Shown: one piece after another, positions 25,858 through 54,329 of the stretch
Numbering within the stretch: the stretch's first letter is position 1
Layout of the letters: the number at the start of each line of letters is the position of its first letter
Source of the DNA: Flagellimonas abyssi
Lineage (GTDB): Bacteria; Bacteroidota; Bacteroidia; Flavobacteriales; Flavobacteriaceae
NCBI RefSeq assembly: GCF_019457905.1
Contig: NZ_JAHZSV010000015.1
Coordinates: forward strand, 62,001 to 126,000
Reading direction: 5' to 3'
DNA: 64,000 nucleotides
Program-made: the position numbers and the translations under genes
Notes under the pieces: model-generated
What the model was told of the DNA's origin: nothing
Seen by the model: the letters and a program-made list of their open reading frames with translations, nothing else
The model's database searches: none

Positions 25858-25883
25858 CTAAAACACCATCAAAACAACACATT

Positions 25884-25919: not shown

Positions 25920-25966
25920 TTATTTGGTTTCGTTTAATCTCAATTAAAATCAGTTTGAAAGGCACC

Positions 25967-26091: not shown

Positions 26092-26095
26092 AAAT

Positions 26096-34629: not shown

Positions 34630-36561
34630 CTACAACTGTTGAAAATTATAACGCACAAATGCTTCCATTGCTGCATAACTTGCCAATCCTAGGGACTGAT
34701 ACCTTTGTGCGGTTTCCTTGTTCCTATCCTCGGCCCTCACCCAAAATTCACGGAGATCCTCTCCTTGGAACATCACCCCGTCCTTTTGTGTTTGATGGAA
34801 AAATATAGCTTTTCGTTTTCGTAGAACCTGTGCCGGACTCATCGGAACGGCCATCTCGATCTCATGGGTCTCCCACTCGTGCCATGCGCCTCTATACAAC
34901 CAGACCCAACAATCTTCCATAAAGGCATTGCTCTTTAGTTCCTCCAAGGAAGCAAACAACGCTTCCAAGCATACCCGATGGGTTCCATGGGGGTCGGCCA
35001 AGTCCCCGGCCGCATAAATTTGATGCGGTTTGATCTCTTCAATAATACGGTTCATAATACGGATATCATCAACGCCCAACGGTTTTTTCCTTATAGCCCC
35101 GGTTTCATAAAAGGGAAGGTCCAAAAAGTGAACTTGACTATCTGGAATTCCCATATAGCGAGTAGCGGCCAAGCTTTCCGCCCTTCTGATATTCCCTTTG
35201 AGTTTTCTTACCAATTTCGAATCGTATTCTTCCTCCGTTTTGTCGGATATATTTTGCACGACCTCTGTAAACAGTTCCGATTTTTCCAAACTATTGGCCA
35301 CCTCCGCTATTTTGAGCGCTTCATGATCGGGCACCGCAATATTTCCGGAGGTCTGATACGCCACATGTACTTCGTGCCCTTGGGCGACCAAACGATCAAA
35401 GGTCCCTCCCATTGAAATAACATCATCATCCGGATGGGGACTGAAAATAATGACCCGCTTCCTTTCAGGTTGTGCACGTTCTGGACGATTGGAATCATCT
35501 GCATGGGGCTTACCTCCCGGCCATCCTGTAATGGTATGCTGAAGCCTATTGAACGTCTTGATGTTCAGTTCATATGAGGATTGCTCAGAACTTAAAAGAT
35601 CCGACATCCCCGAATCATTATAGTCCTTATCTGTCAATTGCAGGATTGGTTTGTTTTTTTGCATACTCAACCAAACTACGGCTTTATGAGTGAGATCCTT
35701 GGTCCAATCACAGGTCCTTACCAACCATGGGGTATCTATTCGGGTAAGGTGCGAAGCCGCTTCCTTGTCCAGCACAAATGTAGTGTTTGCATGTTCTTGG
35801 AGATAGGTTGCAGGTACATGGGCACTGATCTCCCCTTCTATGGTATCCCGTACAATTTCTGACTTGTTCTGTCCCCATGCGAGCAATACAATCCTTTTGG
35901 CTTTACTAATGGTTCCGATTCCCATGGTCACCGCCTTCCTCGGTACATTTTCCAATCCTTTGAAGGCTGGTGCGGCATCAACACGGGTGATATGGTCCAA
36001 GGTGATGTCCCTGGTCACGGAATTGAAATGGGACCCCGGCTCGTTAAAACCAATGTGTCCGGAACGGCCGATACCCAACAATTGAAAGTCCAGACCTCCT
36101 GCATCTTGAATAGCCTGCTCATACCTTTTACAGTACTCCTGTAACTCTTCCCTTGGAACCGTTCCATCTGGAATATTGATGTTCTCCGGTGCAATATCTA
36201 TATGGTCGAAGAGATGTTGGTGCATGAAATAATGGTAACTCTGAACATTATTGCGTTCCATGGGGTAATATTCATCCAGGTTAAAGGTGACCACATTACC
36301 AAAGCTCAGGCCCTCCTCCCTGTGCATTCGCACAAGCTCCTCATATACTTTGATAGGTGAGGATCCTGTTGCCAACCCAAGCACACAGGACTGCCTTTTA
36401 TTTTGTTTTTCCTTGATCAGATGTGCTATTTCCTCGGCCACTATTTTGGAACCTTCTTTGGAATCCTGAAAAATAACGTTGTGGATCTTTTCGAAGCGTG
36501 TATCTTCAAATTGACCCGCCGGTTTGTAACCGATAGAACTGTGATTAGTGATTGTTTCCAT
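34630..36561 (-). CDS. nagB: Glucosamine-6-phosphate deaminase fused to a PIG-L/LmbE deacetylase-like domain
   Basis: This 643-residue protein has two domains. Residues about 25-290 are NagB, which converts GlcN-6-P to fructose-6-P and ammonia: LGLATGSSPIKVYEEL, FNLDEYYPM with the catalytic Asp region, and LLGIGRSGHIGFNEPGS (usually LGIGxNGHIGFNEP, so Asn to Ser here). Residues about 375-620 are a PIG-L/LmbE zinc-dependent deacetylase fold with IIFSPHPDDDVISMGG and DLADPHGTHR. NagB-PIG-L fusions of this size occur in many Bacteroidota. Since no nagA gene is visible, the second domain could supply deacetylation of GlcNAc-6-P; this is inference. Confidence 0.93.
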   Translation of the reverse strand: METITNHSSIGYKPAGQFEDTRFEKIHNVIFQDSKEGSKIVAEEIAHLIKEKQNKRQSCVLGLATGSSPIKVYEELVRMHREEGLSFGNVVTFNLDEYYPMERNNVQSYHYFMHQHLFDHIDIAPENINIPDGTVPREELQEYCKRYEQAIQDAGGLDFQLLGIGRSGHIGFNEPGSHFNSVTRDITLDHITRVDAAPAFKGLENVPRKAVTMGIGTISKAKRIVLLAWGQNKSEIVRDTIEGEISAHVPATYLQEHANTTFVLDKEAASHLTRIDTPWLVRTCDWTKDLTHKAVVWLSMQKNKPILQLTDKDYNDSGMSDLLSSEQSSYELNIKTFNRLQHTITGWPGGKPHADDSNRPERAQPERKRVIIFSPHPDDDVISMGGTFDRLVAQGHEVHVAYQTSGNIAVPDHEALKIAEVANSLEKSELFTEVVQNISDKTEEEYDSKLVRKLKGNIRRAESLAATRYMGIPDSQVHFLDLPFYETGAIRKKPLGVDDIRIMNRIIEEIKPHQIYAAGDLADPHGTHRVCLEALFASLEELKSNAFMEDCWVWLYRGAWHEWETHEIEMAVPMSPAQVLRKRKAIFFHQTQKDGVMFQGEDLREFWVRAEDRNKETAQRYQSLGLASYAAMEAFVRYNFQQL

Positions 36562-36653
36562 TGTATTTATAGATTGAATATCATAGATTTTTGTAATTCA
36601 TCATTCTTATTGGCCTTGATATCATGGCCTCCATCGAAGGATATTATTTGGAA

Positions 36654-37523: not shown

Positions 37524-37532
37524 ATGTTATTT

Positions 37533-38648
37533 TTAATGGTACATTTCAATTATTCTGGATCCTGGGTCCACTTGGACCTGAAAAGCATCCTTGGCGCCTG
37601 CCGCTTTGATGGCGGCAATAACTTTGGCTTGTACAGTCTCGGGCGATAGGACAACAATGCTACCACCCCTCCCGGATCCCACAATCTTGGCCCCGTAAGC
37701 ACCCGCTTCAAGGGCGCTTTCTATCATATTGTCAATAAGGGGCAGGCTAATATTTAAAAAATCCCGTAGCACCAGATGATGCTCCAGCATCAAATCACCT
37801 ATTTTTTTTAAATCAAGCTCTGGTCTTCTAAACTCCAGTAGCGCACGTTGTGTAATACTATGGTTACGGATTGCGGCTACAAAATATACCTGCAATTCCT
37901 TCGGAACATAGGGCAAGTAAGTATCAATATCTTTTACATCCGCATTTCCCAAGTCGAAGTTCTTGACATATTTTTTCAGTGTCTTTACCGCCAATAGGGA
38001 CTTATCCTTTAATTCTCGGAGTACCCCGGAGGTATCCTTAGGAATGCCAGACTCCCCAACGATCAGACCAGGAATCAACCTTTCAAACGTTTCATGGTAT
38101 GGTTCCTTTCCTGTTTCAAGGTAAATGATATTACCCATAGCTATACTGAACTGATCCATTCTCCCCCCAGGTCTACCGTGATAGACCACCTCGGATTCAT
38201 AGGCCAACTGTGCAACCAAAGACCTGGTAACGGGAACATTGCAACCAAAGGCGGACAACAAAAATTCCACCCAAGCCACGACTAGGGCGCTGGAGCTTGA
38301 AGTTCCCGCATTAATGGGAATATTGCCTTTGATGACAATATCATATCCATAATCGGGGCAACAACCATAATCCTTCAGCAGATCGATGGCTGCCATAAAG
38401 AAATCCCCTTGTTCAATGACCGTGAGCTTCCTTTTAGGGTCTATGGTCCGTGTTTGGCGCATGTCTGGTTGATCAATAACCAAAAAACCAGTGGTATTCT
38501 TCCTAGCGACCAATGTAATATGCCTATCAATGGCACAGCTTATCACAGGAAGTTCCAAGTAATCTTGGTGGTCACCGAACAAACAAGTCCTCCCTGGGGT
38601 CTTGACCACAACTGTCTCCCTACCTGATAGGTTAGGCTTGCTATCCAT
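37533..38648 (-). CDS. GHMP-family sugar kinase (galactokinase-like)
   Basis: This 371-residue GHMP kinase has an N-terminal signature TPGRTCLFGDHQDYLELPVI (18-37); galactokinases read GRVNLIGEHTDY here. The phosphate loop is INAGTSSSSALVVAW near 111-125, HGRPGGRMDQF provides the expected active-site Asp, and the C-terminal Gly-rich motif is AYGAKIVGSGRGGSIVVL near 328-345. It probably phosphorylates a sugar at C1. It is the first gene of an operon whose promoter region holds a 30-bp palindrome shared with the divergent LacI-type regulator, so it is probably controlled by that regulator and its inducer. Confidence 0.85.
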   Translation of the reverse strand: MDSKPNLSGRETVVVKTPGRTCLFGDHQDYLELPVISCAIDRHITLVARKNTTGFLVIDQPDMRQTRTIDPKRKLTVIEQGDFFMAAIDLLKDYGCCPDYGYDIVIKGNIPINAGTSSSSALVVAWVEFLLSAFGCNVPVTRSLVAQLAYESEVVYHGRPGGRMDQFSIAMGNIIYLETGKEPYHETFERLIPGLIVGESGIPKDTSGVLRELKDKSLLAVKTLKKYVKNFDLGNADVKDIDTYLPYVPKELQVYFVAAIRNHSITQRALLEFRRPELDLKKIGDLMLEHHLVLRDFLNISLPLIDNMIESALEAGAYGAKIVGSGRGGSIVVLSPETVQAKVIAAIKAAGAKDAFQVQVDPGSRIIEMYH

Positions 38649-38732
38649 TATATCCCTTTGTTTTTAAAACTGTCACACATGGATTTGCTCGACATAATCC
38701 GTCGCAATATAATAAAAAATGTGTACGAACAC

Positions 38733-38762
38733 ACTATTAATGTTAACGTTAACATTAATAGT
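38733..38762. promoter_or_regulatory. Perfect 30-bp palindrome, operator for the LacI-type regulator
   Basis: ACTATTAATGTTAAC (38733-38747) is followed directly by its exact reverse complement (38748-38762). The centre AACGTT with flanking TGTTAACGTTAACA is a normal LacI-family operator with a central CG. It lies between the divergent GHMP kinase operon and the regulator gene, so it can control both. Confidence 0.8.
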
Positions 38763-38774
38763 ATTTATTTTAAA

Positions 38775-38782
38775 TATATTTG
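38775..38782 (+). promoter_or_regulatory. -7 element of the LacI-type regulator gene
   Basis: TATATTTG matches TAnnTTTG. The palindrome lies just upstream, over the -33 region. The element is only 5 bases from the GTG start at 38787, so the message may be almost leaderless. Confidence 0.45.
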
Positions 38783-38786
38783 TCTG

Positions 38787-39812
38787 GTGAAGAAAAAAAT
38801 TACCATTAAAGATATCGCTCGCCTAGCCGATGTTTCCATTGGAACAGTGGACAGGGTCATCCACAACCGGGGCAAAGTTTCACAAAAAGCTCATGATCGT
38901 GTTCATCAGGTCATGGAAGAACTGCAATATAAGCCCAACCCTTTGGCCAGAATACTAAAGAACAATACTGTATTCCGTATACAGATCTTAATACCCGATC
39001 CATCCTTAGACCCCTACTGGACCTCTTGCTCCGAGGGAATTGATGAAATTATTCAAGAGTTCGAGGCCTTTGACATCGACTTCAATGTTCACTACTTTGA
39101 CCCGTCCTTGCCGGAACAGTTTCTCAACAAGGGGTTCGAGGTCATGGCGAATAGCCCGGATGCCTTGCTATTTGTTCCGCTTTTCGAAACGGAAAGCACT
39201 ACCCTACTTAAGGAATTGAAAGATAGGGACATTGTGACGGGTACCTTCAACAGTCCCTTAAACAATGAAATGGGACAACATGTTGGACAGGATTTATTTG
39301 TCAGCGGGAGGGTAGCCGCCAAACTCATGTCAATTTTGCTCCCTGAATCCGCCTCGATTTTAATCGTTCATATCGATGAATCCCACAATGCGATACATAT
39401 CAAACAGAAAGAGGAAGGGTTCAGGTCATTTTTCAGGGAAAAGCGCCCATACCAAAAACTGACTGCTCTTTCCTTACGCTCAAATGAAGTACATAGCCGT
39501 TTGACATCGTTCATTAAGGAATCCGAGCCTTCGGGTTTTTTCGTCACCACATCCAAAACCTACCAAGTTGCAGAAGTCTTGGACCAAGAAGAGTGGAACT
39601 CAGCGCTTATAGGGTATGATCTTATCGAACGGAATATCGATTACCTGAAGAAGGACCAAATCAACTTCCTGATCCATCAAGCCCCAAAGCAACAGGCGTC
39701 ACTTTCCCTTCGATATATCATTGAAAGATTGCTTTTTGACAAAAAATTCCCCAACTCACAGTTGCTACCCATTGATATCATCAATTCGGAAAATGTGAAC
39801 AGCTATCTTTGA
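38787..39812 (+). CDS. LacI-family transcriptional regulator
   Basis: This 341-residue regulator has a LacI helix-turn-helix (ITIKDIARLADVSIGTVDRV, about 5-24) and the hinge helix region NPLARILKNN. A periplasmic-binding-protein-like effector domain (about 60-340) of the class that binds sugars follows (TGTFNSPLNNEMGQHVGQDL, SALIGYDLIERNIDYL). I chose the GTG at 38787: the frame is open further upstream, but that part covers the palindromic operator and reads as non-protein. The regulator is divergent from the GHMP kinase operon and convergent with the CBM9-like gene, overlapping its end by 10 bases. Its ligand is probably the sugar handled by the kinase operon. Confidence 0.9.
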   Translation: MKKKITIKDIARLADVSIGTVDRVIHNRGKVSQKAHDRVHQVMEELQYKPNPLARILKNNTVFRIQILIPDPSLDPYWTSCSEGIDEIIQEFEAFDIDFNVHYFDPSLPEQFLNKGFEVMANSPDALLFVPLFETESTTLLKELKDRDIVTGTFNSPLNNEMGQHVGQDLFVSGRVAAKLMSILLPESASILIVHIDESHNAIHIKQKEEGFRSFFREKRPYQKLTALSLRSNEVHSRLTSFIKESEPSGFFVTTSKTYQVAEVLDQEEWNSALIGYDLIERNIDYLKKDQINFLIHQAPKQQASLSLRYIIERLLFDKKFPNSQLLPIDIINSENVNSYL

Positions 39813-40450
39813 GCAGGCATTGCATCCAAAAATTGCAACCGACCAAAAGCACTGGGTACATGAAAGTCCGGCTCCCTGGTACCTGGATCGACCCAACTGA
39901 TCCAATCAAATATCTTAGGACCTTTACCCTTTTGTCCTCCTCCTTTGCAGTCGGCCCTGAATATTCCCATATAAATTCCGTTGTCATGGATTAGGTCCAA
40001 TGCATTCAAAGATGCTTTTCCGACCGACACCTCTATTTGATAACCATCCCCTGTCAATCTCGAATTCACTTCTAATTGATTCGACGGCCATCTCCAATCG
40101 TAATCAAAATTTCGATAGTGGGAAGCGGCATAATCAAGGACACGACCATAGGGGTCGAGTTCAAGACAATAATAGTTTTTCAAATCCAGATTGGCGGTAA
40201 AAAACAATTCCACCCGGTCAGAGTTGACAACTTCCAACTTATGATCGCGCAATCGTTCAACGTTCAAGGAAGTTTCCGAAACCTCAAAACGCGCATAAAG
40301 GCAATGGGAATCATGTTGTGCCATGAACCGTGTTTTCTGTATCGTACCTTGGCTCCATGGATTGATGAATGCTTCCAAGCGGGGAATAAGCTCCCAATTG
40401 ACTCTCCCTTCACCTTGATGGACGGTTTGATATACGGGATATTGTTTCAT
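39803..40450 (-). CDS. CBM9-like carbohydrate-binding family protein
   Basis: This 215-residue protein resembles the CBM9/DOMON-like beta-sandwich group (carbohydrate-binding family 9-like). It has WSQGTIQKTRFMAQHDSHCL, YARFEVSE, NSDRVELFFTANLDLKNYYCLELDPYGRVLDY, and a late DWISWVDPGTREPDFHVPSAFG, a motif common to this group. No signal peptide is apparent, which is unusual for a carbohydrate-binding protein; either it acts in the cytoplasm or the annotated start is not the whole story. It is the last gene of the long operon, 29 bases after the GH109 gene. Confidence 0.75.
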   Translation of the reverse strand: MKQYPVYQTVHQGEGRVNWELIPRLEAFINPWSQGTIQKTRFMAQHDSHCLYARFEVSETSLNVERLRDHKLEVVNSDRVELFFTANLDLKNYYCLELDPYGRVLDYAASHYRNFDYDWRWPSNQLEVNSRLTGDGYQIEVSVGKASLNALDLIHDNGIYMGIFRADCKGGGQKGKGPKIFDWISWVDPGTREPDFHVPSAFGRLQFLDAMPAQR

Positions 40451-40479: not shown

Positions 40480-41838
40480 TCAATAGCTACCATTGTCCCA
40501 GTCAAATGGTTCTCGTTTAATCCATTGCCCTCTTGTGAAATCAGGAAAATCCTGGGGCTCTCCATTATTGGCTATGGATCTTTCGGACAAAGGTGTTACT
40601 GCGCTCCAGGCAGCGGCATCATAAACATCCAAAGGTGGAGCGATATTGGCCTTGGCACTTTCGACAAAGGCATTCATTACAAAAAAGTCCATACCACCAT
40701 GGCCTGCACCTAAGGCATATTCACCATACTTTTTCCAAAGGGGGTGATCGTACTGTTCCAGCCAAGGAGTTGCCTCATCCCATTGATGGGGTTCCGATTG
40801 TCCCTCAATATACATCCGATTACCATCCACTTCCCAAAGCCCTTTGGAGCCCTGCACCCTAAAGCCCAAAGAATATGGTCTAGGCAAATTACAGTCATGG
40901 GTAACGATTATTGTTTCGCCATTTGCCGTTTCCAAGGTAGAGGTGATTACATCCCCCTGTTTGAACTTGACCTTGGCATTGGGGTGGTCCGCCCCTCCAA
41001 CTTCCAGTATATAATTGTGCAAACCTATTCCTTTGGTGGCATGGGAGGTCATGGAAACCAATCTATTGCCACGATTGACATCGGCCATTGTGGCTATGGG
41101 ACCAAGTCCATGGGTTGGGTATACATCGGCATTTCTTTTTACCGAATGCGCCGTACGCCATTTGGATTCTGAAATTCCCCTATCTCCAAACTCAGCTCCC
41201 TTTCCGTAGGCAGTTTTTCCGTCATTGAACTTCACATGTCTAAGGTCATGCTGATAACCGCAGCGAAAGTGAACCAATTCACCAAAGACATCCTGCTTTA
41301 CCATATGTAGCACCGCCATGATATCACGACGATAATTCACATTTTCCAGAATCATCATATGGGTTCCCGTACGCTCGTGTGTATTTACCAAATCCCAACA
41401 CTCTTCAAGGGTATTGGCCGCAGAAACCTCGACTCCTGCATATTTTCCGGCCTCCATGGCATCAACGGTCATTCGGGTGTGCCAGAGCCATGGCGTTGAA
41501 ATGACCACAGCATCCAGGTCTTTTAATTCCAATAGATTGCGATAATCATATGGGTCCTTTCCAAACGATTTTGGTTTTTGTCTATTGGCCTTGGATATCA
41601 AATCCATCGCAACGCCGATTCGATTTTCATCGATATCACAAATAGCAGCAATATGGACATCGTCTCGCCTTAAAAGATTGGAAAGGTGATTGGTACCCCG
41701 AAGTCCAACACCGATCAAACCAATGTTGAGCTTATTTCCAATCGACCTATACATGGTACCATGGGCCAGTCCGGGGGCCAGCGCCACTGCTGTTCCAAAT
41801 ATGGAAGTGTTTTTTACAAATTTTCTTCTTGAGCTCAT
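40480..41838 (-). CDS. GH109-type (NAD-dependent) alpha-N-acetylgalactosaminidase-like protein, Tat-exported
   Basis: This 452-residue Gfo/Idh/MocA-fold protein has a twin-arginine signal (SSRRKFVKN at 2-10). The NAD-binding loop is LIGVGLRGTNHL (about 40-51). The GH109 signature YPTHGLGP (about 240) contains the Tyr and His of the family's catalytic site, and NRGNRLVSMTSHATKG and GHGGMDFFVM follow. GH109 enzymes use a tightly bound NAD to oxidise the sugar at C3 transiently, eliminate the aglycone, and reduce again; known members cleave alpha-GalNAc. This fits release of alpha-GalNAc from mucin-type glycans. It lies next to a second, non-GH109 Gfo/Idh/MocA gene with the same type of signal. 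Confidence 0.88.
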   Translation of the reverse strand: MSSRRKFVKNTSIFGTAVALAPGLAHGTMYRSIGNKLNIGLIGVGLRGTNHLSNLLRRDDVHIAAICDIDENRIGVAMDLISKANRQKPKSFGKDPYDYRNLLELKDLDAVVISTPWLWHTRMTVDAMEAGKYAGVEVSAANTLEECWDLVNTHERTGTHMMILENVNYRRDIMAVLHMVKQDVFGELVHFRCGYQHDLRHVKFNDGKTAYGKGAEFGDRGISESKWRTAHSVKRNADVYPTHGLGPIATMADVNRGNRLVSMTSHATKGIGLHNYILEVGGADHPNAKVKFKQGDVITSTLETANGETIIVTHDCNLPRPYSLGFRVQGSKGLWEVDGNRMYIEGQSEPHQWDEATPWLEQYDHPLWKKYGEYALGAGHGGMDFFVMNAFVESAKANIAPPLDVYDAAAWSAVTPLSERSIANNGEPQDFPDFTRGQWIKREPFDWDNGSY

Positions 41839-41875
41839 ATTAACTAAATTTTATATCAGTAAATCCTTGTCAGTA

Positions 41876-43216
41876 CTATAGCACTTTGGTCTGGCCTGGC
41901 ACCGGGACAGGGTAGTTGCCATTTTCATCTGGGCTTGTCGGTGTCGGAGAATCCCAGCTAAGTTCTTCTGGCATAAGTTGTAGATCGGATGCTAGGGCCT
42001 CGTCCCATCCGATGACTTTTCCACTGTAGGTGGCCATACGTCCCATTATCGCCGTCATAGTGCTTTTGGCTCCATTGTAAGCATCGTTGATCACCGTATT
42101 GTTCCGTATAGAAGCAAACAGTTCATTATGTTCCTGTTGGTAGGGGTTATGCCCTTTGGAGTTTCCTATGGACTGTATTTCCTCACCGTCAAGGTTATAG
42201 ATCTTTGCGACCCCTGCGTCATGGGTGTCCACCCTGCCATTGGTCAGCTGGAACGCCTCGCCCACTCGGTACATGGTGTTGGGCTGGTGCCTACATTGGC
42301 TTGCGATGACCGCTCCGCTGGGATAAGTGAACTCCACAAAATGATGGTCGAATATTTCTCCGTGATCGGGTCCTTTCCGTACCATGCGGCCGCCCATGCC
42401 CTGGGCAGATACAGGGTATTCCCCTATAAACCAGTTGGCTATATCGATATTGTGGATATGCTGCTCAAGAATATGATCACCGCAGACCCAATTGAAATAA
42501 TACCAATTTCTCATCTGATACTCCAGTTCGGACTGTCCCGGTTGTCGTTGACGCACCCATACACCGGAAGAGTTCCAATAGACCTGCCCCGACAGGATTT
42601 TGCCAAGGTCACCGCCTTTGATAAGTGAATTCACTTTGATGTAATTTTCCTGGTAATGGCGCTGTAGCCCGACAACGACATTCAATTTCTTTTGATCGGC
42701 CAACTTAGCAGTCTCAAATACCTTACGTATTCCGGGCGCGTCGGTGGCCACCGGTTTTTCCATAAAGACGTGTTTGTCATTTTCAATGGCATAGGCAAAG
42801 TGGTAGGGCCTAAAACCTGGGGGTGTGGTAAGAATTACAACATCGGCAAGGTCTATCGCCTCTTTAAAACCTTCAAAGCCAACAAATTTATGTTTATCCT
42901 TAACATTGATTTTTCCGGTATCCTTGTATTTGTCGTACAAATGGCCATAACTGGAGTTCAACTGGTCCTCAAAAAGATCTGCCATGGCGACCAATTGTAC
43001 ATGGTCATCGGCCTCAAGGGCTTGGTTGGCAGCACCTGTTCCACGACCTCCACAGCCCACTAGGGCGATCTTTAGCTTTTTCTCGTTGAACACATTGACC
43101 ATTCCATGGCCTCCCAGCGAGGGCAAGATCATCGCCCCTGATGCCATGGATGCATTTTTTATAAACTTTCTTCTCGACTTGTTATTTGTCCCATCCATAT
43201 TTTTCATGTTACGCAT
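41876..43216 (-). CDS. Gfo/Idh/MocA family oxidoreductase, Tat-exported
   Basis: This 446-residue NAD(P)-dependent oxidoreductase has a twin-arginine signal (KSRRKFIKN near 14-22). The Rossmann loop is LVGCGGRGTGAANQAL (about 53-68). The catalytic motif has the expected Lys (HVFMEKPVATDA), and the sugar-binding region has DHILEQHIHNIDIANW with the usual His. It differs from GH109 in having EKP, so it is a dehydrogenase-like member. Export by Tat means it is folded with its cofactor and works in the periplasm. With GH109 and a TIM-barrel protein in the same operon it may belong to an oxidative glycoside-cleaving pathway. Confidence 0.85.
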   Translation of the reverse strand: MRNMKNMDGTNNKSRRKFIKNASMASGAMILPSLGGHGMVNVFNEKKLKIALVGCGGRGTGAANQALEADDHVQLVAMADLFEDQLNSSYGHLYDKYKDTGKINVKDKHKFVGFEGFKEAIDLADVVILTTPPGFRPYHFAYAIENDKHVFMEKPVATDAPGIRKVFETAKLADQKKLNVVVGLQRHYQENYIKVNSLIKGGDLGKILSGQVYWNSSGVWVRQRQPGQSELEYQMRNWYYFNWVCGDHILEQHIHNIDIANWFIGEYPVSAQGMGGRMVRKGPDHGEIFDHHFVEFTYPSGAVIASQCRHQPNTMYRVGEAFQLTNGRVDTHDAGVAKIYNLDGEEIQSIGNSKGHNPYQQEHNELFASIRNNTVINDAYNGAKSTMTAIMGRMATYSGKVIGWDEALASDLQLMPEELSWDSPTPTSPDENGNYPVPVPGQTKVL

Positions 43217-43231
43217 ATGTTTTATTCTTAT

Positions 43232-44200
43232 TTAATTTTCCACCCAATACTCCTTGAGCTCATTCGGGTCCGGCAATTTTTTTGGACGCACCACCCTAAA
43301 CCCTACAAAACCGGCATCGGTGAACCACCATTTACTCCTTGGAAATTGTGGATCTCGTTGTTTCCAAATGGGATCGGAAGCCATTCTGGAGGCACTTCGC
43401 ATTCCTTCCGACCCATCCTTGAACGAACCTCCCCTCACGACCACTGGATACTCCTTGACCACTGGCTCAAAGGGAAGTCGGGTATCTTCATACCCATTTT
43501 CATGGTATTGGTCCAAGGTCCATTCCGCCACATTTCCGTACATGTCATATAACCCCCAAGGGTTGGGCTTCTTTCCCCCTACAGCATGGTAAGAACCTTC
43601 ACTGTTTTGCTTAAACCATGCATATGCTCCCAATTTTGCAGGGTCCGAACCAAAATGATAAGGTCCTTCGCTCCCTGCCCGTGCAGCATACTCCCATTCG
43701 GCCTCGGTCGGCAATCGATAAAACCGCCCAGTTACCGCAGACAGCCATTGACAAAAAGACGAAGCGGCCAGCTGAGTGACATTAACGGCTGGATAATTTG
43801 CATCCCGGCCCATTCCCAGGCTCATGTCCACATAAGGGGTCGTTGCTCCAGACACTGCGTCGGCCTTCAGTTGTATTTCGTTTGCCTTTGACCTATTTTC
43901 AAGATCGTCAATGGCTCTTTCGATAAACAGGTTATAAAGTTCCCAGGTTACTTCAAATTTTGACATCCAGAATCCTTCGACCTTAATTTCACGTATGGGC
44001 CCCTCGTCTGTATTTCTCCCTGGTTCTCCCTCTTCACTGCCCATATCAAATGTTCCTGAGGGAATCGTGATCATGTCCAATGAGACATCCACCCCGGGTA
44101 AATCTTGGGTATAGTCGGATTCCTGTTGCGCATGGGTATTACCAAATGTTACCATTAAGGCTAACAAAATATGGATCGTTCTAATTTTCATTAAGTTCAC
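43232..44200 (-). CDS. SUMF1/FGE-like domain protein, exported, without catalytic cysteines
   Basis: This 322-residue protein has a signal peptide (MNLMKIRTIHILLALMVTFGNTHA, then QQE) and a formylglycine-generating-enzyme (SUMF1) fold: IPSGTFDMGSEEGE, EVTWELYNLFI, YPAVNVTQLAASSFCQWLSA, YRLPTEAEWEYAARAG, NPWGLYDMYGNVAEWT, VVRGGSFKD and GFRVVR. True FGE enzymes carry catalytic cysteines after the RGGSW region. Here that stretch reads RGGSFKDGSEGMRSASRM with no Cys. It is therefore unlikely to mature the two sulfatases and is probably a structural or binding relative. It ends 15 bases before the Gfo/Idh/MocA gene. Confidence 0.88.
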   Translation of the reverse strand: MNLMKIRTIHILLALMVTFGNTHAQQESDYTQDLPGVDVSLDMITIPSGTFDMGSEEGEPGRNTDEGPIREIKVEGFWMSKFEVTWELYNLFIERAIDDLENRSKANEIQLKADAVSGATTPYVDMSLGMGRDANYPAVNVTQLAASSFCQWLSAVTGRFYRLPTEAEWEYAARAGSEGPYHFGSDPAKLGAYAWFKQNSEGSYHAVGGKKPNPWGLYDMYGNVAEWTLDQYHENGYEDTRLPFEPVVKEYPVVVRGGSFKDGSEGMRSASRMASDPIWKQRDPQFPRSKWWFTDAGFVGFRVVRPKKLPDPNELKEYWVEN

Positions 44201-44205
44201 AGTAT

Positions 44206-45141
44206 TTAAAATGAATCACTTGCTTTATAAGCGTCGATAACCGCCTGTTCACCGGCTTTGCCTTGTTCGGAATTGCCATGTTCCATTCCTACGATACCTT
44301 GATAGCCCTTGGAATGAATGTGCTTAAATACATTTAGATAATTAATCTCACCTGTTGTAGGCTCTTTTCGCCCTGGATTATCGCCTACCTGGAAATAGGC
44401 AATCTCTTCCCATGAAGCATCTATATTTGGGATTAAATTCCCTTCTTGGATCTGTTGATGATAGATGTCGAAAAGGATTTTGCATGATGGGCTGCCCACC
44501 GCTTTACATATTTCATAGGCTTGAGGGCTATCCGTAAGAAAAAGTCCTGGGTGGTCCCTAAAGTTTAGAGGCTCCAATACCATGGTTAAACCATGAGGTT
44601 CCAAAAGAGCGCTGGCCTGTTTAAGCGACTCTACAACATTGGCTGTTTGGTAGCCTTTTCTTAATCGAAGATCCACATGACCGGGCACTACGGTCATCCA
44701 TTTGGCATTCACCCGCTTGGCAACTTCGATAGATTCCCTGATTTCCTTCAGGAATTTTTCGCGGAGTGAAGTATCACCATTGGTTAGGTTGGGTTTGCTC
44801 CAAGAAATTTCGTGGGCAACAAAGACACCCATTTCCAAGCCACGTTTTTCCATAGTTGCGGCCATTTGTTTCTGAAGATCTAAGGAGCGGCCCTTCATAC
44901 CGTTGTCTTCAAAAGCGGTAAATCCCATGTCCGCCATAAAATTTAGTTGGTCGATGGGGTCGTCTCCTGCCAAAGCTTTGAACATGCCCAAATGAGGGGC
45001 ATATTTCAAATGGAATTGGCCCGGGACAACAGGCTCGCCGTTACCCGATTTTCCCGACTGGGCGAATATTCCTGTTACCCCTAGGCCCAAGGCCCCTGAG
45101 AACATTACATTATCCTTTACAAAATTTCTTCGATTCATCAT
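44206..45141 (-). CDS. Hydroxypyruvate isomerase-like TIM-barrel protein, Tat-exported
   Basis: This 311-residue xylose-isomerase-like TIM barrel (AP endonuclease 2 superfamily) begins with a twin-arginine signal (MMNRRNFVKDN). Conserved parts are MGFTAFEDNGMKGR near 71-84, the metal ligands MVLEPLNFRDHPG with Glu, KILFDIYHQQI with Asp/His, FQVGDNPGRKEPTTGEIN, and the last Glu in GIVGMEHGNS. Hyi enzymes isomerise small sugars, but periplasmic members beside Gfo/Idh/MocA proteins have been tied to 3-keto-glycoside chemistry, which fits this operon. It ends 5 bases before the SUMF1-like gene. Confidence 0.85.
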   Translation of the reverse strand: MMNRRNFVKDNVMFSGALGLGVTGIFAQSGKSGNGEPVVPGQFHLKYAPHLGMFKALAGDDPIDQLNFMADMGFTAFEDNGMKGRSLDLQKQMAATMEKRGLEMGVFVAHEISWSKPNLTNGDTSLREKFLKEIRESIEVAKRVNAKWMTVVPGHVDLRLRKGYQTANVVESLKQASALLEPHGLTMVLEPLNFRDHPGLFLTDSPQAYEICKAVGSPSCKILFDIYHQQIQEGNLIPNIDASWEEIAYFQVGDNPGRKEPTTGEINYLNVFKHIHSKGYQGIVGMEHGNSEQGKAGEQAVIDAYKASDSF

Positions 45142-45214: not shown

Positions 45215-46735
45215 TCAACGATCGTAACTGACAGATGTCTTAAAGGTGGATGCGGGCAGTTCCTCTGAATTCACCAGATTGCCCCTTGTCCATGCTTTCC
45301 AACCATAGTATAAATATTCAGGTTGTTCGGTTATGGGAATAATTACCCGCCTCTTTTGGATATATGCCTTTACCTCCCTCCTACCATCCAAGGAAAACCC
45401 TCGTAATGCCATTCCATCACTGGTGGTGAGTCCACTGCTGTGCTCAAAGGAAACCATGAGATGATCACCTTTAAACTTTACCTTTTTGACCAAAGGCCCC
45501 GAAGGTACAATGGCATGACCATAGGTCTTATGTAAGGCCCATCGGGCCAATCGATCGCCCACGGCTTTTTTATTCGTAGGGTGCACGTCATTTTTTGCTC
45601 CTATATCGGAGGTAACAGCCATTCCACCATAGGGAACCATGTACAAAAGTTTTCTTTGTTCATCCCGAAATTGCGGCCATAAATGAGCGTTATAGTTCTT
45701 GGTATCAATCGCGGAAAGTTGTGCCCAGTAAAAGGGCATTTGCAGGTCGCCCCATTTTACCCTGTAATCCCGAACCATCATTGCTTGTAATTCGGCATAT
45801 TCATCTACCCGAGGCTGTTCTTGCGCATTGCTCTCTCCCTGATACCATATTATTCCCTTAATAGGCATTTTCAAAAGTGGATGCACACCTGCCCGATAGG
45901 CAAACCCAGGCTTGTAGGCGTGATTTGGTCCCAAACTGTCCACAAGAACATCTTTTGCCCGACCTAGGTTCTGAACGCCCCTTTCCCTGATCCACTTCGG
46001 CAATGCATCGTTATAAAGCCAATTCTTGGTCACTTTTCCTCGATAATCCCGTGAAGCATACAATGTTTCGGCGCTTATAAATGTCTCTATTGGGGCACCT
46101 CCAATGGCTAGATGTATCAATCCTATGGGAACAGAGGTTTCCTCAAGAATTTTTTTTCCAAAATAATATCCTACTGCACTCATGGAACTTGAAGTAGTTT
46201 GATTGCTCGACTCCCAATGTCCTAAGTAAAACTCTTCCCTATTCAACCTTTTTACAATGGAATCACCAAAGGCCTTGTTGTATATGTTTTCACCCGCATA
46301 GGTGGGATTATAGAGACGTAACAATCCTTGGTCTGTTTTGGACACCTCAGAGGGGTAATGCATTTCCTTATCCAATGGCCATTCCATGTTAGATTGACCC
46401 GAACAAAGCCATATATCACCAATTAGAATATTTTTCAATCTAATTTCCTGGCCTTGATGACGAACATATAGTACGTGTGGTGTCGTGTCCGCTTTCCGTG
46501 AACGTAGCCATATACTCCAAGAGTGATTGCCTTCTACCGTCACCTCCTTGACCTCCCCATCAAACATAACCTCCACGATCTCATTAGGGCGACCCCATCC
46601 CCATATATGGATGGGCTTATTACGCTGTATGACCATGTTATCCGTAAAAATCGAAGGTAGCTTAACCTGACCAAATATGGTATAGGTTCCCAATAAGAAC
46701 AGGCAACCCAGCATGTATGTAGCGACTTTTTTCAT
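45215..46735 (-). CDS. Sialate O-acetylesterase (SASA family)
   Basis: This 506-residue SGNH-type esterase of the sialate 9-O-acetylesterase family has a signal peptide (MKKVATYMLGCLFLLGTYTIFG, then QVK). An N-terminal beta domain (IFTDNMVIQRNKPIHIWGWG) is followed by the nucleophile block WLCSGQSNMEWPL, with Ser near 113, then AIGGAPIETF, the Asn block IWYQGESNAQ, and the Asp-His in DVHPTNKKA. It removes O-acetyl groups from sialic acids so that sialidase and lyase can work. I chose the ATG at 46735 (MKKVA), four codons inside the longest frame. It belongs to the sialic-acid operon, downstream of the mutarotase-transporter fusion. Confidence 0.92.
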   Translation of the reverse strand: MKKVATYMLGCLFLLGTYTIFGQVKLPSIFTDNMVIQRNKPIHIWGWGRPNEIVEVMFDGEVKEVTVEGNHSWSIWLRSRKADTTPHVLYVRHQGQEIRLKNILIGDIWLCSGQSNMEWPLDKEMHYPSEVSKTDQGLLRLYNPTYAGENIYNKAFGDSIVKRLNREEFYLGHWESSNQTTSSSMSAVGYYFGKKILEETSVPIGLIHLAIGGAPIETFISAETLYASRDYRGKVTKNWLYNDALPKWIRERGVQNLGRAKDVLVDSLGPNHAYKPGFAYRAGVHPLLKMPIKGIIWYQGESNAQEQPRVDEYAELQAMMVRDYRVKWGDLQMPFYWAQLSAIDTKNYNAHLWPQFRDEQRKLLYMVPYGGMAVTSDIGAKNDVHPTNKKAVGDRLARWALHKTYGHAIVPSGPLVKKVKFKGDHLMVSFEHSSGLTTSDGMALRGFSLDGRREVKAYIQKRRVIIPITEQPEYLYYGWKAWTRGNLVNSEELPASTFKTSVSYDR

Positions 46736-46845
46736 ATTTATTATCATTCATTGGCACGGTTTACCCCCAAATTCAATCCTTTTCAAAATATCCCTGGGTG
46801 CCATCATTGAATTAAACCTGTCCTTTTTATTTGAACCAGAAGACA

Positions 46846-49461
46846 TCATTTGCCTGGCATATCTTTTTGGTCGGATTCAGGGAACATCAAGCTAAAAGCG
46901 TATCCAAATCCATAACAGGAGACAACACCAAAAAAGGCGTACATCAAAAAGCTTATTTCGGTATGGACACTGATATACCATATCAAGACCGCACTGGCAA
47001 AAAGTCCCATAAGGGTCCCCTTGGCATTCGCCCTTTTTGTGAGCATTCCCAATAGGAACATACCCCCTAGACCTCCGGTGAACAATCCGAGATATCTGTA
47101 AAATTCGTCCCAAAGGGATTTTATATTGGAATTGGCCATCCAAAGGGCCAGCACCATCCCGATCAGTCCGGTTAGCACGGTCGCTATTCTAGCTATCCGC
47201 AATAACCGTTTATCCGGAACACCCATTTTAAATCGTTTGTAGAAATCATTGCAAAAAGCAGTGGAAACTGAATTGAGGCTGCTACTGATGCTGCTCATGG
47301 CCGCAGAAAAAATACCGGCCACCAGAAGGCCCGACACCCCTACGGGCAGTTCCTTTACGATGTACATTGGAAAAATGGAGTCATTGTTTGAAATCGTAGG
47401 GGACAAACGCGCCGGAAATTCGGAATAAAAAATGAACAGCAAGGTCCCAAGACCAAAGAAAATAATACTGGCCGGAAGGGTCAACACAGCATTGGTATAC
47501 AGGGTTTTTTGGGAGTTTTTCATATCCGTACTGGTCAGATATCTCTGAACGATCGTCTGGTCCGTTCCCTGGGTTACCATGGCCGAGGCGAGCCCTCCAA
47601 TGGCAACCACCCAAAATGTGGCCTTGGTAAAATCAAAATCCATATTGGCTACGTTGAATTTCTGATGTTCCGAAGCATAGGTGATCATATCGCCAAAAGA
47701 ACTCTCCGTATGCAGCATGATCCACACAACAGCAAGCACACTCCCTCCCAGCAGTACAATGACCTGCATGACATCGGTCCATATAACGGCCTCAATTCCC
47801 CCAAAAGCGGTGTAGGCGATACAAAGTACGCTCATGATAAGAATACTGGTTTCCACCGGAATTCCGGTAACAATGGATATAGCCAACGAGGGCAACAACA
47901 AAACAATACCAATACGCCCTAATTGAAACAGAATAAAGGACAGGCTACCAAAGGCCCGTGCGGTATAATTAAAACGGTCCTCCAAGAATTCATAGGCGGT
48001 AGTAATCTTCAAGCGATTGAAAAAAGGAATGAACACGAGTGAAATCAAAGGAGTAATGGCTATCGCGGCCATATTCAACATAAAGAAGGACCAATCGGTT
48101 ACAAATGCTTTTGCCGGAATGGCCATAAAGGTAATGGCGCTGAGCAACGTCCCAAAAACGCTCAATCCACTGGCCCACCAGGGAATCCGTCCACCACCGA
48201 CAAAGTAATCGTTGGTTGACTTTTGCTTATAGGAGAAATAGACCCCAATAAGCAAAGAAAGCATAAGATAACCGAACAGCACCATATAATTAATGGTGCC
48301 AAATGGCTGCATTGCCTCCCCTTCCGTAATTTTTTGAACCGTTGTAGTTCGAATACCCGGGGATGCTTCTCCAGAGACCATAAACACATCCTGTCCATCA
48401 GCAAAGGAAAGAGCCGTGACCGGCAAGGGTCTTGGCAGCGTATCGTATACAAACCATCGGTCCGTTATGCTATTATAGGATAGTACTTGCTTTGAAAATC
48501 CAGGATGGTGATTCAAGATTTCATCGCGCCGTGACCTTAAGTCTTTCAAAAGAGAATCATTGGATTCCGATGATATCCGCAAGGCGATTTCCTCCAACTT
48601 GTTGAAAAGCACCTCGTCCGACCCGCCATAGACCATAATATGCATCGATCCCGTGGGGCGCCCATAGGCACCCATCAGTACCCTAGGCCGATCATCGATT
48701 GTTAACCTTCCCTGCTCTTGCCATTCCCCTGTATTGAGGTCATAGGATAAATAAGTGGTCAATGGCACCGATTTTTGTCCCTTTATTTGATTCCTTCCCC
48801 CAATGACAAACAATTTTCTGGAATGTTGTGTATCCTGTATCGCCGCCACATGCAGGGCCCTTGGTTCACCGGGGAAATCCGGTAGTTTTTCCCAAGACTC
48901 TTTGGTCAATGACAGCCGATATAAGGAATTGGTGCTCCTTTGCGCATTCTTCCCACCAACAACGTAGACATAATCGTTATCCACCACGGCAGCTGAATAT
49001 GCCAGGGGTTCCGGCAGGCTTGGAAGTTCAGTAATGTCAATGGAATTGTCGTTGGAATTGAATTGTAACAGCAGTACTTGGTCGATGCTCCCTTGGGAAT
49101 TCTCCCCTCCAATCAAAAGTATGCCTTCCTCCAGGATAACGGAAGACCCATAGGCCAATGGGCTTGGCAGTGTCTTTGAGGCGAGTTGCCACTGCTCCCC
49201 TTTGAGAAAATATATGGCGTCGCTCCAGACTTTTGCCCCACCATCCCAAGGAAGTCCCTCGGGAAAATTGGCACCGCCAGCAGCAATTATCACGCCATCC
49301 TGCCGACCTCCCATCATTCCTGCAAAGCCATTGAAAGTATCCAGTCCCTTTCCCGAAAGGCTGGGCAGTTTTTGCACTATAAGTTTTTGTCGATCCTGTC
49401 CCATGCACAGGGCTGAGATACAACACAGGGCTGCAACTGCAATAAACCGTTTAATCATCAT
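46846..49461 (-). CDS. N-acetylneuraminate mutarotase (kelch, NanM-like) fused to an SSS sialic-acid transporter
   Basis: This 871-residue fusion has a signal peptide (MMIKRFIAVAALCCISALCMG, then QDR). A six-bladed kelch propeller like NanM (about 25-375) shows GVIIAAGGANFPEG, ILLIGGENSQGS, YVYVVGGKNAQ, KLFVIGGRNQIKG and DVFMVSGEASPG. From about 385 to 865 there is a sodium:solute symporter with 13 or so helices (DYFVGGGRIPWWASGLSVFG, FNRLKITTAYEFLEDRF, SSISSSLNSVSTAF). The propeller would convert alpha-Neu5Ac released by sialidase to the beta form on the periplasmic face and pass it to the symporter. It overlaps the GH20 gene upstream by 11 bases. Confidence 0.93.
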   Translation of the reverse strand: MMIKRFIAVAALCCISALCMGQDRQKLIVQKLPSLSGKGLDTFNGFAGMMGGRQDGVIIAAGGANFPEGLPWDGGAKVWSDAIYFLKGEQWQLASKTLPSPLAYGSSVILEEGILLIGGENSQGSIDQVLLLQFNSNDNSIDITELPSLPEPLAYSAAVVDNDYVYVVGGKNAQRSTNSLYRLSLTKESWEKLPDFPGEPRALHVAAIQDTQHSRKLFVIGGRNQIKGQKSVPLTTYLSYDLNTGEWQEQGRLTIDDRPRVLMGAYGRPTGSMHIMVYGGSDEVLFNKLEEIALRISSESNDSLLKDLRSRRDEILNHHPGFSKQVLSYNSITDRWFVYDTLPRPLPVTALSFADGQDVFMVSGEASPGIRTTTVQKITEGEAMQPFGTINYMVLFGYLMLSLLIGVYFSYKQKSTNDYFVGGGRIPWWASGLSVFGTLLSAITFMAIPAKAFVTDWSFFMLNMAAIAITPLISLVFIPFFNRLKITTAYEFLEDRFNYTARAFGSLSFILFQLGRIGIVLLLPSLAISIVTGIPVETSILIMSVLCIAYTAFGGIEAVIWTDVMQVIVLLGGSVLAVVWIMLHTESSFGDMITYASEHQKFNVANMDFDFTKATFWVVAIGGLASAMVTQGTDQTIVQRYLTSTDMKNSQKTLYTNAVLTLPASIIFFGLGTLLFIFYSEFPARLSPTISNNDSIFPMYIVKELPVGVSGLLVAGIFSAAMSSISSSLNSVSTAFCNDFYKRFKMGVPDKRLLRIARIATVLTGLIGMVLALWMANSNIKSLWDEFYRYLGLFTGGLGGMFLLGMLTKRANAKGTLMGLFASAVLIWYISVHTEISFLMYAFFGVVSCYGFGYAFSLMFPESDQKDMPGK

Positions 49462-51538: not shown

Positions 51539-53137
51539 TTAGGATCCGATCAACTCGCTCAATGGGATTTTTTGAAAATACAGTTCCTTCTTCCCCTCAT
51601 AGAGAATGCCCAAATGATTTTCATCAATAATAGAAAGACAAGAGTACCCATAGGTATCATCGGCATAAAGTTCAATTTGATTTTCCTCTGGCCAGGACAT
51701 CCCCAGATCAAAACTTGTCTTTATCGTAATATGGTTACGACGGGTTTTTGAATCAGGATTTGAAAAAAATAAAATTTTCCCACGTTGTGGATGGTCATAG
51801 GCAACTATGCTCGCCATACAATTGGGCTCGATCAAGGCCTTTCGCGATGTCGGGTGTTCTTCCCAAGTTTCTCCCATATCGCCACTGACAGCTACCGATC
51901 GACCGTTCAGACTGTCCTTTCTATTGGCCCTATTGCGGTCGTCACGCATATTCAGCATAAGCGTTCCTTCGGATATCTGTACCACCTGCGCTTCAGTGGT
52001 TTCCGATTTTGCCCCGGTTCCCACATCCCAGGATTCGCCCCCATCTTCACTATAAATGATGGTTGAATGAGGTATTCGATTCTTATCCTTGTACTGTGCC
52101 GGAAAGACCAAAGTCCCATTTTCCATAGTAATACCGGCCCCTGGCCCATTGAAGAACAACTGCCATTCCCGTTTTTTGGTGGATGTAGTAATATTTATGG
52201 GAGATGACCAGGTCAGACCATCATCCTTACTGTTCACTAGAATCAATTGCCCCGTTTTGTCTGGAGACAATCCGGGTTCAGAGGCATTCCAAGCTCGTTT
52301 GCCAGGATATCCATGCAGCCAAAGGGCCGCAACCCAAATGGTGTTCGTCTTATGATCAACAAGCACTGCTGGGTCCCCAATACCGTTCTGATCTTCTGGC
52401 AGTCCACCGTACTCACCCATATCCATGATTACTTTCATCGGCTCCCAGGTCTCTCCTCCGTCTGTACTTCGGCTCATGCCAACGTCGATATCCTCCTGAA
52501 GATCCACTGGGTCATTGTATCGGTTATCGTAAACTGCGATCAAGGTACCCTTATTTGTTGTGGCCATTCCTGGTATGCGATAGGTATCTATACCATCTTG
52601 TCCTTGCTGCCTTAGAGCATTACCCAATCGCTGTGCACTGGATACATCATCCATCCGGGGCGTTACATTTGACCCATCGGATAGAATAGCCCCCAAGAGG
52701 TTGACACCAATTTTACCAGTCAAATCAGGGTTGCTGCTCAAGCTTGTGGACAACCAAAAATAATGTGTTCCTGCGGAAAGGGACCGATTCTCTTTTAGGG
52801 AGAACTCCGGTGCAAGATTTGAAGTTTTTGTCACAATCGAAGCACTTTCAAAATCGTCCTTAGTACTGTAATGAAGCGTTACCTCCGATAGATCATTGAT
52901 ATCCGATGTCCCCTCCAAAGAAAACTTGAGCTCCGCTATGCTTATCGCCTGGGAGGAATCGGGCACTTGAATTTGAATTTTTAGAATTTGGTTTTGATCT
53001 TTACCTATCAAAACCGGCAGTACAGGTTGTTGCGCCTTGATATCAACAACATTGTTCTGTTTGCTGCCACAGGAAAGGGCCAACATTAAAATGAGCCCCA
53101 AAATGGACGTTCCAAACCTACGATCGATCATATTCAT
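51539..53137 (-). CDS. nanH: GH33 exo-alpha-sialidase, lipoprotein
   Basis: This 532-residue sialidase has a lipoprotein signal ([20 protein letters not shown], then LSC, Cys23). An N-terminal beta-sandwich runs to about 170 ([20 protein letters not shown]). The six-bladed propeller has the Arg motif [21 protein letters not shown], five Asp boxes ([40 protein letters not shown]) and the nucleophile Tyr region [10 protein letters not shown]. It releases terminal sialic acid at the cell surface. The ATG at 53137 overlaps the epimerase stop as ATGA, which fixes this start against the longer frame. The gene is the second of the operon. Confidence 0.95.
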
Positions 53138-54303: not shown

Positions 54304-54321
54304 ATTATGTATGACATAATA
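54303..54321. promoter_or_regulatory. GntR operator 1, over the epimerase start
   Basis: TATTATGTATGACATAATA is a 19-base palindrome with a 3-base centre (core TTATGT-ATG-ACATAA, 54305-54319). It sits between the -7 element and the ATG of the epimerase gene and touches the start codon. The same core occurs at 60371-60385 and 61337-61351. Confidence 0.8.
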
Positions 54322-54329
54322 CAAATATA
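54322..54329 (-). promoter_or_regulatory. -7 element of the sialic-acid operon
   Basis: On the minus strand this reads TATATTTG, an exact TAnnTTTG match, directly upstream of the GntR operator and about 20 bases before the epimerase ATG. Confidence 0.6.

Follow-up and report, generated by a model that had tools for sequence, protein, structure and literature searches.

A putative stand-alone GH109 enzyme beside a conserved TIM-barrel, SUMF1-like and oxidoreductase trio in a sialic-acid locus of Flagellimonas abyssi, with a likely tie to 3-keto-sugar metabolism

A block of four consecutive genes in Flagellimonas abyssi raises the question of whether it encodes one stepwise redox system for cleaving glycans or proteins of separate function. 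The block occupies positions 40480-45141 of a 64,000-nucleotide stretch (positions 62,001 to 126,000 of contig NZ_JAHZSV010000015.1; hereafter the window). It encodes, all on the minus strand and with intergenic gaps of 5, 15 and 37 bases, a TIM-barrel protein (TIM), a SUMF1-like protein of the FGE fold, a Gfo/Idh/MocA oxidoreductase (GfoB) and a GH109 enzyme (Table 1). An earlier note on this DNA had described these four genes, with an EKP-type dehydrogenase among them and a CBM9-like gene following, and the open reading frames (ORFs) and Pfam matches confirm this, the two dehydrogenases matching GFO_IDH_MocA with 42 and 41 bits. The interpretation given there, a single pathway in which a sugar is oxidised by the dehydrogenase and the aglycone is then eliminated by the TIM barrel, is partly supported. 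The explanation that we favour, with confidence and doubt about evenly balanced, is a composite: a self-sufficient GH109 enzyme next to an independent accessory module of TIM, the SUMF1-like protein and GfoB (the trio), which would belong to a 3-keto-sugar pathway.

The conservation of the trio was followed in three samples. Of 561 confirmed relatives, the best 80 make up the named loci, in which close relatives are over-represented and gene families are 40%-identity clusters, whose names rest on the one member scanned per family. The synteny set has 22 sources, namely the window and 21 relatives with a TIM orthologue (20 from the genus, one from the order), and the family sample covers 249 evenly sampled genomes from 235 genera and is less biased than the named loci. 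In the synteny set, the SUMF1-like and GfoB genes stand beside TIM in 16 of the 22 sources, in two gene orders, and the trio is therefore not a product of chance. Outside this count stands genome G030, whose TIM match lies at a contig edge and whose GfoB adjoins TIM by coordinates. GfoB lies near TIM in 41 of the 80 named loci, with the SUMF1-like gene immediately adjoining GfoB in 38 of these and the remaining three ending at contig ends; this pairing was counted in the named loci and the relatives. The surroundings of the trio vary, as judged by eye, from a beta-galactosidase-like gene with a SusC/D pair, through sugar catabolism of the dehydrogenase/amidohydrolase type, to housekeeping genes. 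One of the 16 sources (G042) carries an in-frame TAG stop in GfoB (C19:13463-14584).

The link between GfoB and TIM extends beyond physical neighbourhood. In the family sample TIM is present in 81 and GfoB in 47 of the 249 genomes, and 45 of the 47 GfoB genomes also have TIM (p ~1e-24). The two genes are neighbours in 18 of these 45 genomes and unlinked in 27, and the excess holds among the unlinked cases (27/29, p ~1e-15). Within the genus (60 genomes, our own included), GfoB at 60% identity or more and TIM are each found in 22 genomes and together in 17 (p ~1e-6). All p-values are from Fisher's test, which takes genomes as independent, and are inflated by kinship. Taken together, these counts support a separate conserved trio with a functional link between GfoB and TIM, and a predicted exported redox/isomerase module that is common in marine Flavobacteriaceae.

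GH109 does not share this conservation, being near the trio in one of the 80 named loci. Among the 80 named loci, the full four-gene block occurs elsewhere only in Muricauda sp. ARW1Y1 (L058), where the order is sialidase, GH20, NanM-SSS, SASA, TIM, SUMF1-like, GfoB, GH109, GHMP kinase and nucleotidyltransferase. The block is thus conserved beyond the strain, a point that the earlier note had wanted checked, in the same order but with GH109 interrupted in the public assembly, where it runs over two frames (L058:11200-12700), through decay or sequencing error; the CBM9-like and LacI genes have no match in the L058 locus. In two further genomes (G009 and G023) GH109 lies two ORFs from a SUMF1-GfoB pair, in convergent orientation and with TIM absent. 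A third (G048) has TIM without GfoB between its GH109 locus and its sialic locus, and no GfoB orthologue was found genome-wide. Neither the trio nor GH109 was seen in the 20 kb read around the sialic loci of G005 and G031, and both genomes have the trio elsewhere. The four genes as a single unit were rejected in view of the one locus in 80 and the convergent, TIM-less arrangement in G009 and G023. Of the one stepwise system proposed earlier, the GfoB-TIM link and the 3-keto-glycoside neighbours described below stand, and the inclusion of GH109 is not supported.

The trio likely belongs with 3-keto-sugar metabolism, because the trio or its TIM is found elsewhere beside GMC oxidases, 3-keto-disaccharide hydrolases (PF06439) and dehydrogenases resembling BT2158, which is reported to act in the periplasm as a glycoside 3-dehydrogenase (PMC11300592). 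A GMC oxidase lies within eight ORFs of TIM in 33 of the 80 named loci, and in 21 a GMC gene and a Gluconate_2-dh3 gene are directly upstream of TIM. Eight loci have the order GMC, Gluconate_2-dh3, PF06439 hydrolase, SUMF1-like, GfoB, TIM and BT2158-like dehydrogenase, the last scoring 498 bits for the one member scanned (cut-off 750); seven of these eight also carry a second, divergently placed TIM with an E-x-H motif. Furthermore, G009 has its SUMF1-GfoB pair close to a PF06439 gene, with TIM absent, and in G033 a more distant GfoB copy (40% identical), likewise paired with a SUMF1-like gene, is only a few ORFs away from GMC and Gluconate_2-dh3-like genes. The genome of the window has a GMC/Gluconate_2-dh3/E-x-H-TIM cluster on contig C38, without this TIM, as well as four full-length GMC relatives and BT2158-like genes, the latter all under the family cut-off. 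PF06439 is matched 11 times across this genome, with 10 of the matches clearing the cut-off, and the window's contig (C22) has no match.

The active site of TIM bears on which step it could catalyse. Its E190-P191-L192-N193 resembles E. coli YcjR (E-P-L-N) and Hyi (E-P-I-N), and D225, Q251 and E287 occupy the remaining ligand positions in the alignment with Hyi, so that the E-P-[LI]-N, D, Q, RxEP and E of a hydroxypyruvate isomerase-type site are all present. LEPLN (within VLEPLN) is found in 80 of 80 homologues and all four active-site motifs in 79. Identity to Hyi is 33.5% over 179 residues. The predicted model matches 3ngf best (Z 23.0, root-mean-square deviation (rmsd) 3.2, 242 residues aligned), followed by 1k77 (YgbM; Z 22.6, rmsd 3.4, 240 residues); YcjR (6wn6; Z 21.4, rmsd 3.1, 237 residues) is tied with D-tagatose 3-epimerases and others, and many TIM barrels score near Z 20. 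In the eliminases AtOGE and PuCGE, strand 5 is described as carrying a metal ligand (His or Glu) with a catalytic His two residues on (132 and 134 in AtOGE), the removal of which abolishes AtOGE activity (PMC10628242). Both were compared by description rather than alignment, the E/H-x-H spacing of PuCGE following from the stated superposition. This beta-5 site is not found in TIM, which has E190-P-L-N there. V/I-E-N-H-G-G, an E-x-H pattern, does occur in the same clusters, in 30 of 31 members of another TIM family. For these reasons the aglycone eliminator of the earlier note is not what this TIM resembles: it is probably not an eliminase, and oxidation with isomerisation or epimerisation is likelier than oxidation with elimination. 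No eliminase appears among the 50 matches listed for the TIM structure comparison, which is not used as evidence.

The EKP motif is present in GfoB and in 41 of 41 homologues from the named loci. In the SUMF1-like protein of the window, the Cys pair of FGE is absent, in line with the earlier description; over the last 120 residues of 39 homologues, 29 have no Cys, two have one and eight have two that are mutually adjacent (CC), a spacing that we take not to be that of FGE. An active sulfatase maturase was considered for this protein and rejected for want of the Cys pair; it is a constant, non-FGE partner of GfoB.

Export by the twin-arginine translocation (Tat) pathway, also suggested in the earlier note, is plausible for GH109, GfoB and TIM. 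Twin-arginine leaders are visible in all three (SRRKF, SRRKF and NRRNF, respectively), RRxF occurs near the N-terminus (residues 1-70) in 79 of 80 TIM and 39 of 41 GfoB homologues, and TatC is encoded in the genome (222 bits).

By homology, GH109 is a complete, ordinary enzyme that would run the whole NAD-dependent cycle alone. It matches the solved alpha-N-acetylgalactosaminidase 2ixa with 507 bits and AmGH109A with 266 bits, and contains PF21252 (GH109_C, 283 bits) and PF01408 (42 bits). Its Y195, H243 and H380 correspond to Tyr226, His259 and His404 of AmGH109A (6t2b; chain numbering with a constant offset of 25, matched by hand), which are described as the catalytic residues (PMC10755693). 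In this family oxidation, elimination, hydration and reduction are described as taking place within one active site; therefore, no TIM barrel would be needed. Scores of 55.7 and 28.6 bits place GH109 outside the BT_2158 and BT_2159 families (NCBIfam cut-offs 750 and 650). Its B. thetaiotaomicron relative BT4243 is reported to release GalNAc from the Tn antigen, with a larger yield on sialidase-treated mucin (PMC11992087), a result that fits the sialidase-containing operon of the window. GH109 also has recurring partners of its own. Among 12 loci of relatives with a GH109 orthologue (69-77% identity; one a 5 kb contig), a GHMP kinase is found in seven (G007, G009, G021, G023, G047, G048, G058), and a nucleotidyltransferase as well in two (G009, G023). 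Five have neither (G025, G010, G030 and second copies in G009 and G021). Locus L142 has GH109 without the GHMP kinase, and in L058 the kinase comes after GH109. The GH109 half of the block suggests a route via GalNAc-1-phosphate in marine bacteria. The kinase, nucleotidyltransferase and deaminase/PIG-L fusion at window positions 34630-38648 would make a possible Leloir-like version of such a route, and the GH109 locus of G010 (L146:12929-19000) has a GlmM-type mutase (477 bits, over the cut-off) and a GalE-like epimerase.

According to the composite explanation, GH109 alone would strip terminal alpha-GalNAc off desialylated O-glycan fragments by C3 oxidation, elimination, hydration and reduction, and the GHMP kinase and nucleotidyltransferase encoded nearby would then channel the GalNAc. 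The trio would be an independent, mobile addition to the 3-keto-sugar pathway that Bacteroidota run outside the cytoplasm. In it, GfoB would oxidise or reduce a sugar or glycoside hydroxyl, most likely at C3 and probably by means of tightly bound NAD(P), and TIM, as a divalent-metal keto-isomerase/epimerase of the Hyi/YcjR kind, would shift or invert the carbon next to the keto group, with the SUMF1-like protein as the constant non-FGE companion of GfoB. The net outcome would be the epimerisation or isomerisation of a sugar or glycoside, supplying the GMC-oxidase/E-x-H-TIM cluster elsewhere in the genome. Such a module would add an isomerase step and an FGE-fold partner to 3-keto-sugar chemistry outside the cytoplasm, in an assayable gene set. 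Gene order, co-occurrence, motifs and export signals are read directly in the sequence; the reactions of the trio, its substrate and its action on glycans freed by this locus we infer.

Several observations weigh against this explanation. GfoB is far from every solved enzyme (best PDB match 3cea, 45 bits) and not of the BT2158 type by score (47.9 bits versus 750 for BT_2158_fam; no listed match to BT_2159_fam), and its model is poor (mean predicted local distance difference test (pLDDT) score 61.9), too poor for a structure search; that of TIM is of no more than moderate quality (mean pLDDT 69.8). The link within the trio is strong, not absolute: five genomes of the genus have GfoB without TIM, four of them (G009, G020, G023 and G025) with a SUMF1-GfoB pair, and five have TIM without GfoB. 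In 16 of the 80 named loci, some of them short contigs, both GfoB and GMC are missing from the stretch around TIM. Position 251 of TIM is Gln, as in Hyi, and His in YcjR, so that a small-acid isomerase is as compatible with the site as a glycoside epimerase. In addition, LgdB2-type hydratases are reported to belong to PF01261 as well (PMC10066097), making this class of site compatible with hydration.

A bolder reading, which we consider doubtful, makes the trio an undescribed three-part extracytoplasmic sugar epimerase/isomerase with the FGE-fold protein as an essential partner, acting here on the amino-sugar or sialylated O-glycan pieces left by ordinary glycosidases. GfoB would oxidise and re-reduce with bound NAD(P), TIM would invert or shift the position adjoining the keto group, and the partner might serve, for example, in substrate presentation or cofactor retention, a sialyl or amino-sugar substrate of the trio being hypothetical. 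Unlikely, and more so than that reading, is the stepwise model, in which GfoB oxidises the glycoside C3 in the periplasm, this TIM eliminates the aglycone and GH109 is a third part. The superfamilies are those of the levoglucosan, C-glycoside and BT2158 systems, and the genome-wide GfoB-TIM linkage and the linked PF06439 and BT2158-like genes agree with it, but TIM lacks the catalytic His of E/H-x-H, with its LEPLN invariant, the E-x-H motif resides in the separate TIM family of the same clusters, and GH109 is a solo enzyme by homology and rarely near the trio. We give the same low credence to TIM as a hydratase in the role of LgdB2 or AtHYD, turning the 2-hydroxy-3-keto-glycals of the E-x-H TIM into 3-keto-sugars that GfoB would reduce. 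The immediate GMC, Gluconate_2-dh3, TIM order with a divergent E-x-H TIM in Maribacter/Eudoraea-type loci would suit it, as would the shared PF01261 of LgdB2 (PMC10066097) and the description of AtHYD as a putative sugar phosphate isomerase (PMC10628242). However, the active-site residues of TIM match isomerases/epimerases, LgdB2 and AtHYD being compared here by description only, and the PF06439 gene beside the trio in eight of the 80 loci could perform hydration.

A role of the trio on small molecules (inositols, or hydroxypyruvate- and tetronate-like acids) and none on glycans appears slightly less likely again. The top family matches point that way, TIM scoring 138 bits for hydroxypyruvate isomerase and 128 for 2-oxo-tetronate isomerase and GfoB 67 for inositol 2-dehydrogenase, yet all fall far under the equivalog cut-offs (353, 325 and 355 bits, respectively), and both the conserved twin-arginine leaders, which point outside the cytoplasm, and the recurring GMC oxidase, 3-keto-disaccharide hydrolase and SusC-like neighbours argue otherwise. 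Very improbable is a sialic-acid function, in which GfoB, as an exported relative of RgNanOx/NanY, would convert 2,7-anhydro-Neu5Ac or Neu5Ac2en. NanY is the best of three E. coli oxidoreductases compared with GfoB (65 bits, 27.6% over 181 residues, against 35 for YcjS and 21 for YcjQ), its structure 6o15 (YjhC/NanY) is second in the PDB search (44.9 bits), and the sialic-acid locus itself would suit such a role, as would a GfoB orthologue in three of five congeneric NanM-SSS genomes. On the other hand, two of those five have no GfoB orthologue (G044, one of them, has a 43% homologue) and the sialic loci of G005 and G031 lack the trio in the stretch read. A sialic-acid role for GfoB is unlikely because a myo-inositol dehydrogenase scores alike (45.5 bits) and because the NanM-SSS gene is missing from 19 of the 22 genomes of the genus in which GfoB has an orthologue.

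Known systems offer partial parallels to the block. The BT2158 pathway also uses an exported Gfo/Idh/MocA oxidoreductase, and the B. thetaiotaomicron BT2156-2159 pathway is said to have PF01261 and PF06439 partners. The trio shares the BT2158-like and PF06439 neighbours in the eight loci above and differs in that the score of GfoB is too low for the BT_2158 family, the eliminase His is missing from TIM, a SUMF1-like partner is present and PF06439 has no match on the window's contig. In E. coli, YcjS is annotated as D-glucoside 3-dehydrogenase, YcjR as 3-dehydro-D-guloside 4-epimerase and YcjQ as D-guloside 3-dehydrogenase, all three being cytoplasmic. YcjS/YcjR likewise pair a Gfo oxidoreductase with an E-P-L-N TIM barrel and are a precedent on 3-keto-glycosides, although identity is only 22.5% (TIM and YcjR) and 23.6% (GfoB and YcjS) and no SUMF1-like gene is annotated there. 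Hyi and OtnI/YgbM are the closest relatives of TIM by sequence and model, with the metal-site residues as in Hyi, whereas TIM is under the equivalog cut-offs and carries a twin-arginine leader. RgNanOx/NanY (YjhC) are also Gfo/Idh/MocA oxidoreductases in a sialic-acid context; GfoB differs in its twin-arginine leader, in its low identity and in its distribution, most of the genomes that have it lacking the sialic transporter fusion. GH109 shares family, C-terminal domain and the catalytic Tyr/His/His with 2ixa/2ixb, AmGH109A (6t2b) and BT4243. The polysaccharide utilisation locus of BT4243 (BT4240-50) is likewise tied to desialylated O-glycans and a kinase gene (PMC11992087); the kinase is of the APH type there (BT4240) and galactokinase-like GHMP here, in a marine sialic-acid locus and beside the trio. 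The claim in the earlier note that redox chemistry on amino-sugar or sialyl glycans is undescribed proves too wide, since GH109 action on desialylated mucin (PMC11992087) and that of RgNanOx/NanY on 2,7-anhydro-Neu5Ac (PMC10017367) are in print. The points of interest are a putative isomerase-type TIM and an FGE-fold protein that constantly accompanies a predicted exported oxidoreductase; GH109 is a known enzyme, and the trio would be a variation on 3-keto-sugar systems already known. Among the matches listed in the literature on the trio or on 3-keto/GMC clusters, covered by titles and abstract openings and with subscription papers mostly outside, none describes the trio.

Table 1 Window coordinates of the block and its neighbours
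Feature	Position	Strand	Remarks
N-acetylneuraminate lyase-like aldolase (DHDPS family)	60405..61328	-	142 bits, under NCBIfam cut-off 281
SusC-like TonB-dependent receptor, sialic-acid locus (named by eye)	57007..60312	-	sequence
SusD-like protein, sialic-acid locus (named by eye)	55491..56999	-	kept in sialic loci of G005, G031
N-acylglucosamine 2-epimerase	53134..54324	-	655 bits, over NCBIfam cut-off
BNR-repeat sialidase	51539..53311	-	real start probably downstream of listed TTG
GH20 hexosaminidase-like protein	49451..51532	-	family match
NanM-type Kelch mutarotase fused to SSS symporter	46846..49461	-	single 871-residue ORF
SASA-family (sialate O-acetylesterase-like) protein	45215..46747	-	gene upstream of TIM
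TIM-barrel protein, PF01261 (AP_endonuc_2, 119 bits)	44206..45141	-	twin-arginine leader; hydroxypyruvate-isomerase/YcjR-type site E190, D225, Q251, E287
SUMF1-like protein, FGE fold, PF03781 (FGE-sulfatase, 154 bits)	43232..44200	-	GTG start; Sec-type leader by eye
GfoB, Gfo/Idh/MocA oxidoreductase	41876..43216	-	EKP and CGDHIxEQHIHNxD motifs; twin-arginine leader
GH109 alpha-N-acetylgalactosaminidase by homology	40480..41838	-	Y195, H243, H380 kept; twin-arginine leader
CBM9-like protein (CBM9_1, 34 bits)	39803..40450	-	final minus-strand gene before LacI; no signal peptide by eye
LacI-type regulator (named by eye)	38658..39812	+	divergent from GHMP kinase operon, converging on CBM9-like ORF
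GHMP kinase, galactokinase-like, candidate GalNAc-1-kinase	37533..38648	-	comes after GH109 in L058
Nucleotidyltransferase PF00483	36654..37523	-	comes after GHMP kinase
Glucosamine-6-phosphate deaminase-like/PIG-L fusion	34630..36561	-	NF002557, 1054 bits

The block sits inside a Flagellimonas/Allomuricauda (Muricauda) sialic-acid utilisation locus, and the link to sialidase and hexosaminidase genes drawn in the earlier note holds. The minus-strand genes from 61328 to 39803 comprise the sialic-acid locus, in which a GntR-type regulator (by eye) lies on the plus strand, followed by TIM, SUMF1-like, GfoB, GH109 and CBM9-like. The LacI-type regulator on the other strand splits the block from the GHMP kinase group downstream; such a regulator is near GHMP and GH109 in relatives too, and a CBM9-like homologue adjoins LacI/GHMP in G047, G048, G058 and G007. 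Past the PIG-L fusion the minus strand continues with a gene judged BadF-like by eye and with a sulfatase gene. The Bacteroidota promoter pattern has four matches against 2.9 expected, none inside the block. Five congeneric genomes with TIM and no adjacent GfoB have TIM divergent from a PIG-L deacetylase that carries a leader recognised by eye (L052:17824-18642, L054:10402-11220, L051:215-1075; Pfam-confirmed for one). A tmRNA gene followed by an integrase-like ORF (by eye) at window positions 25461-27322 suggests an integrated element beside ssrA.

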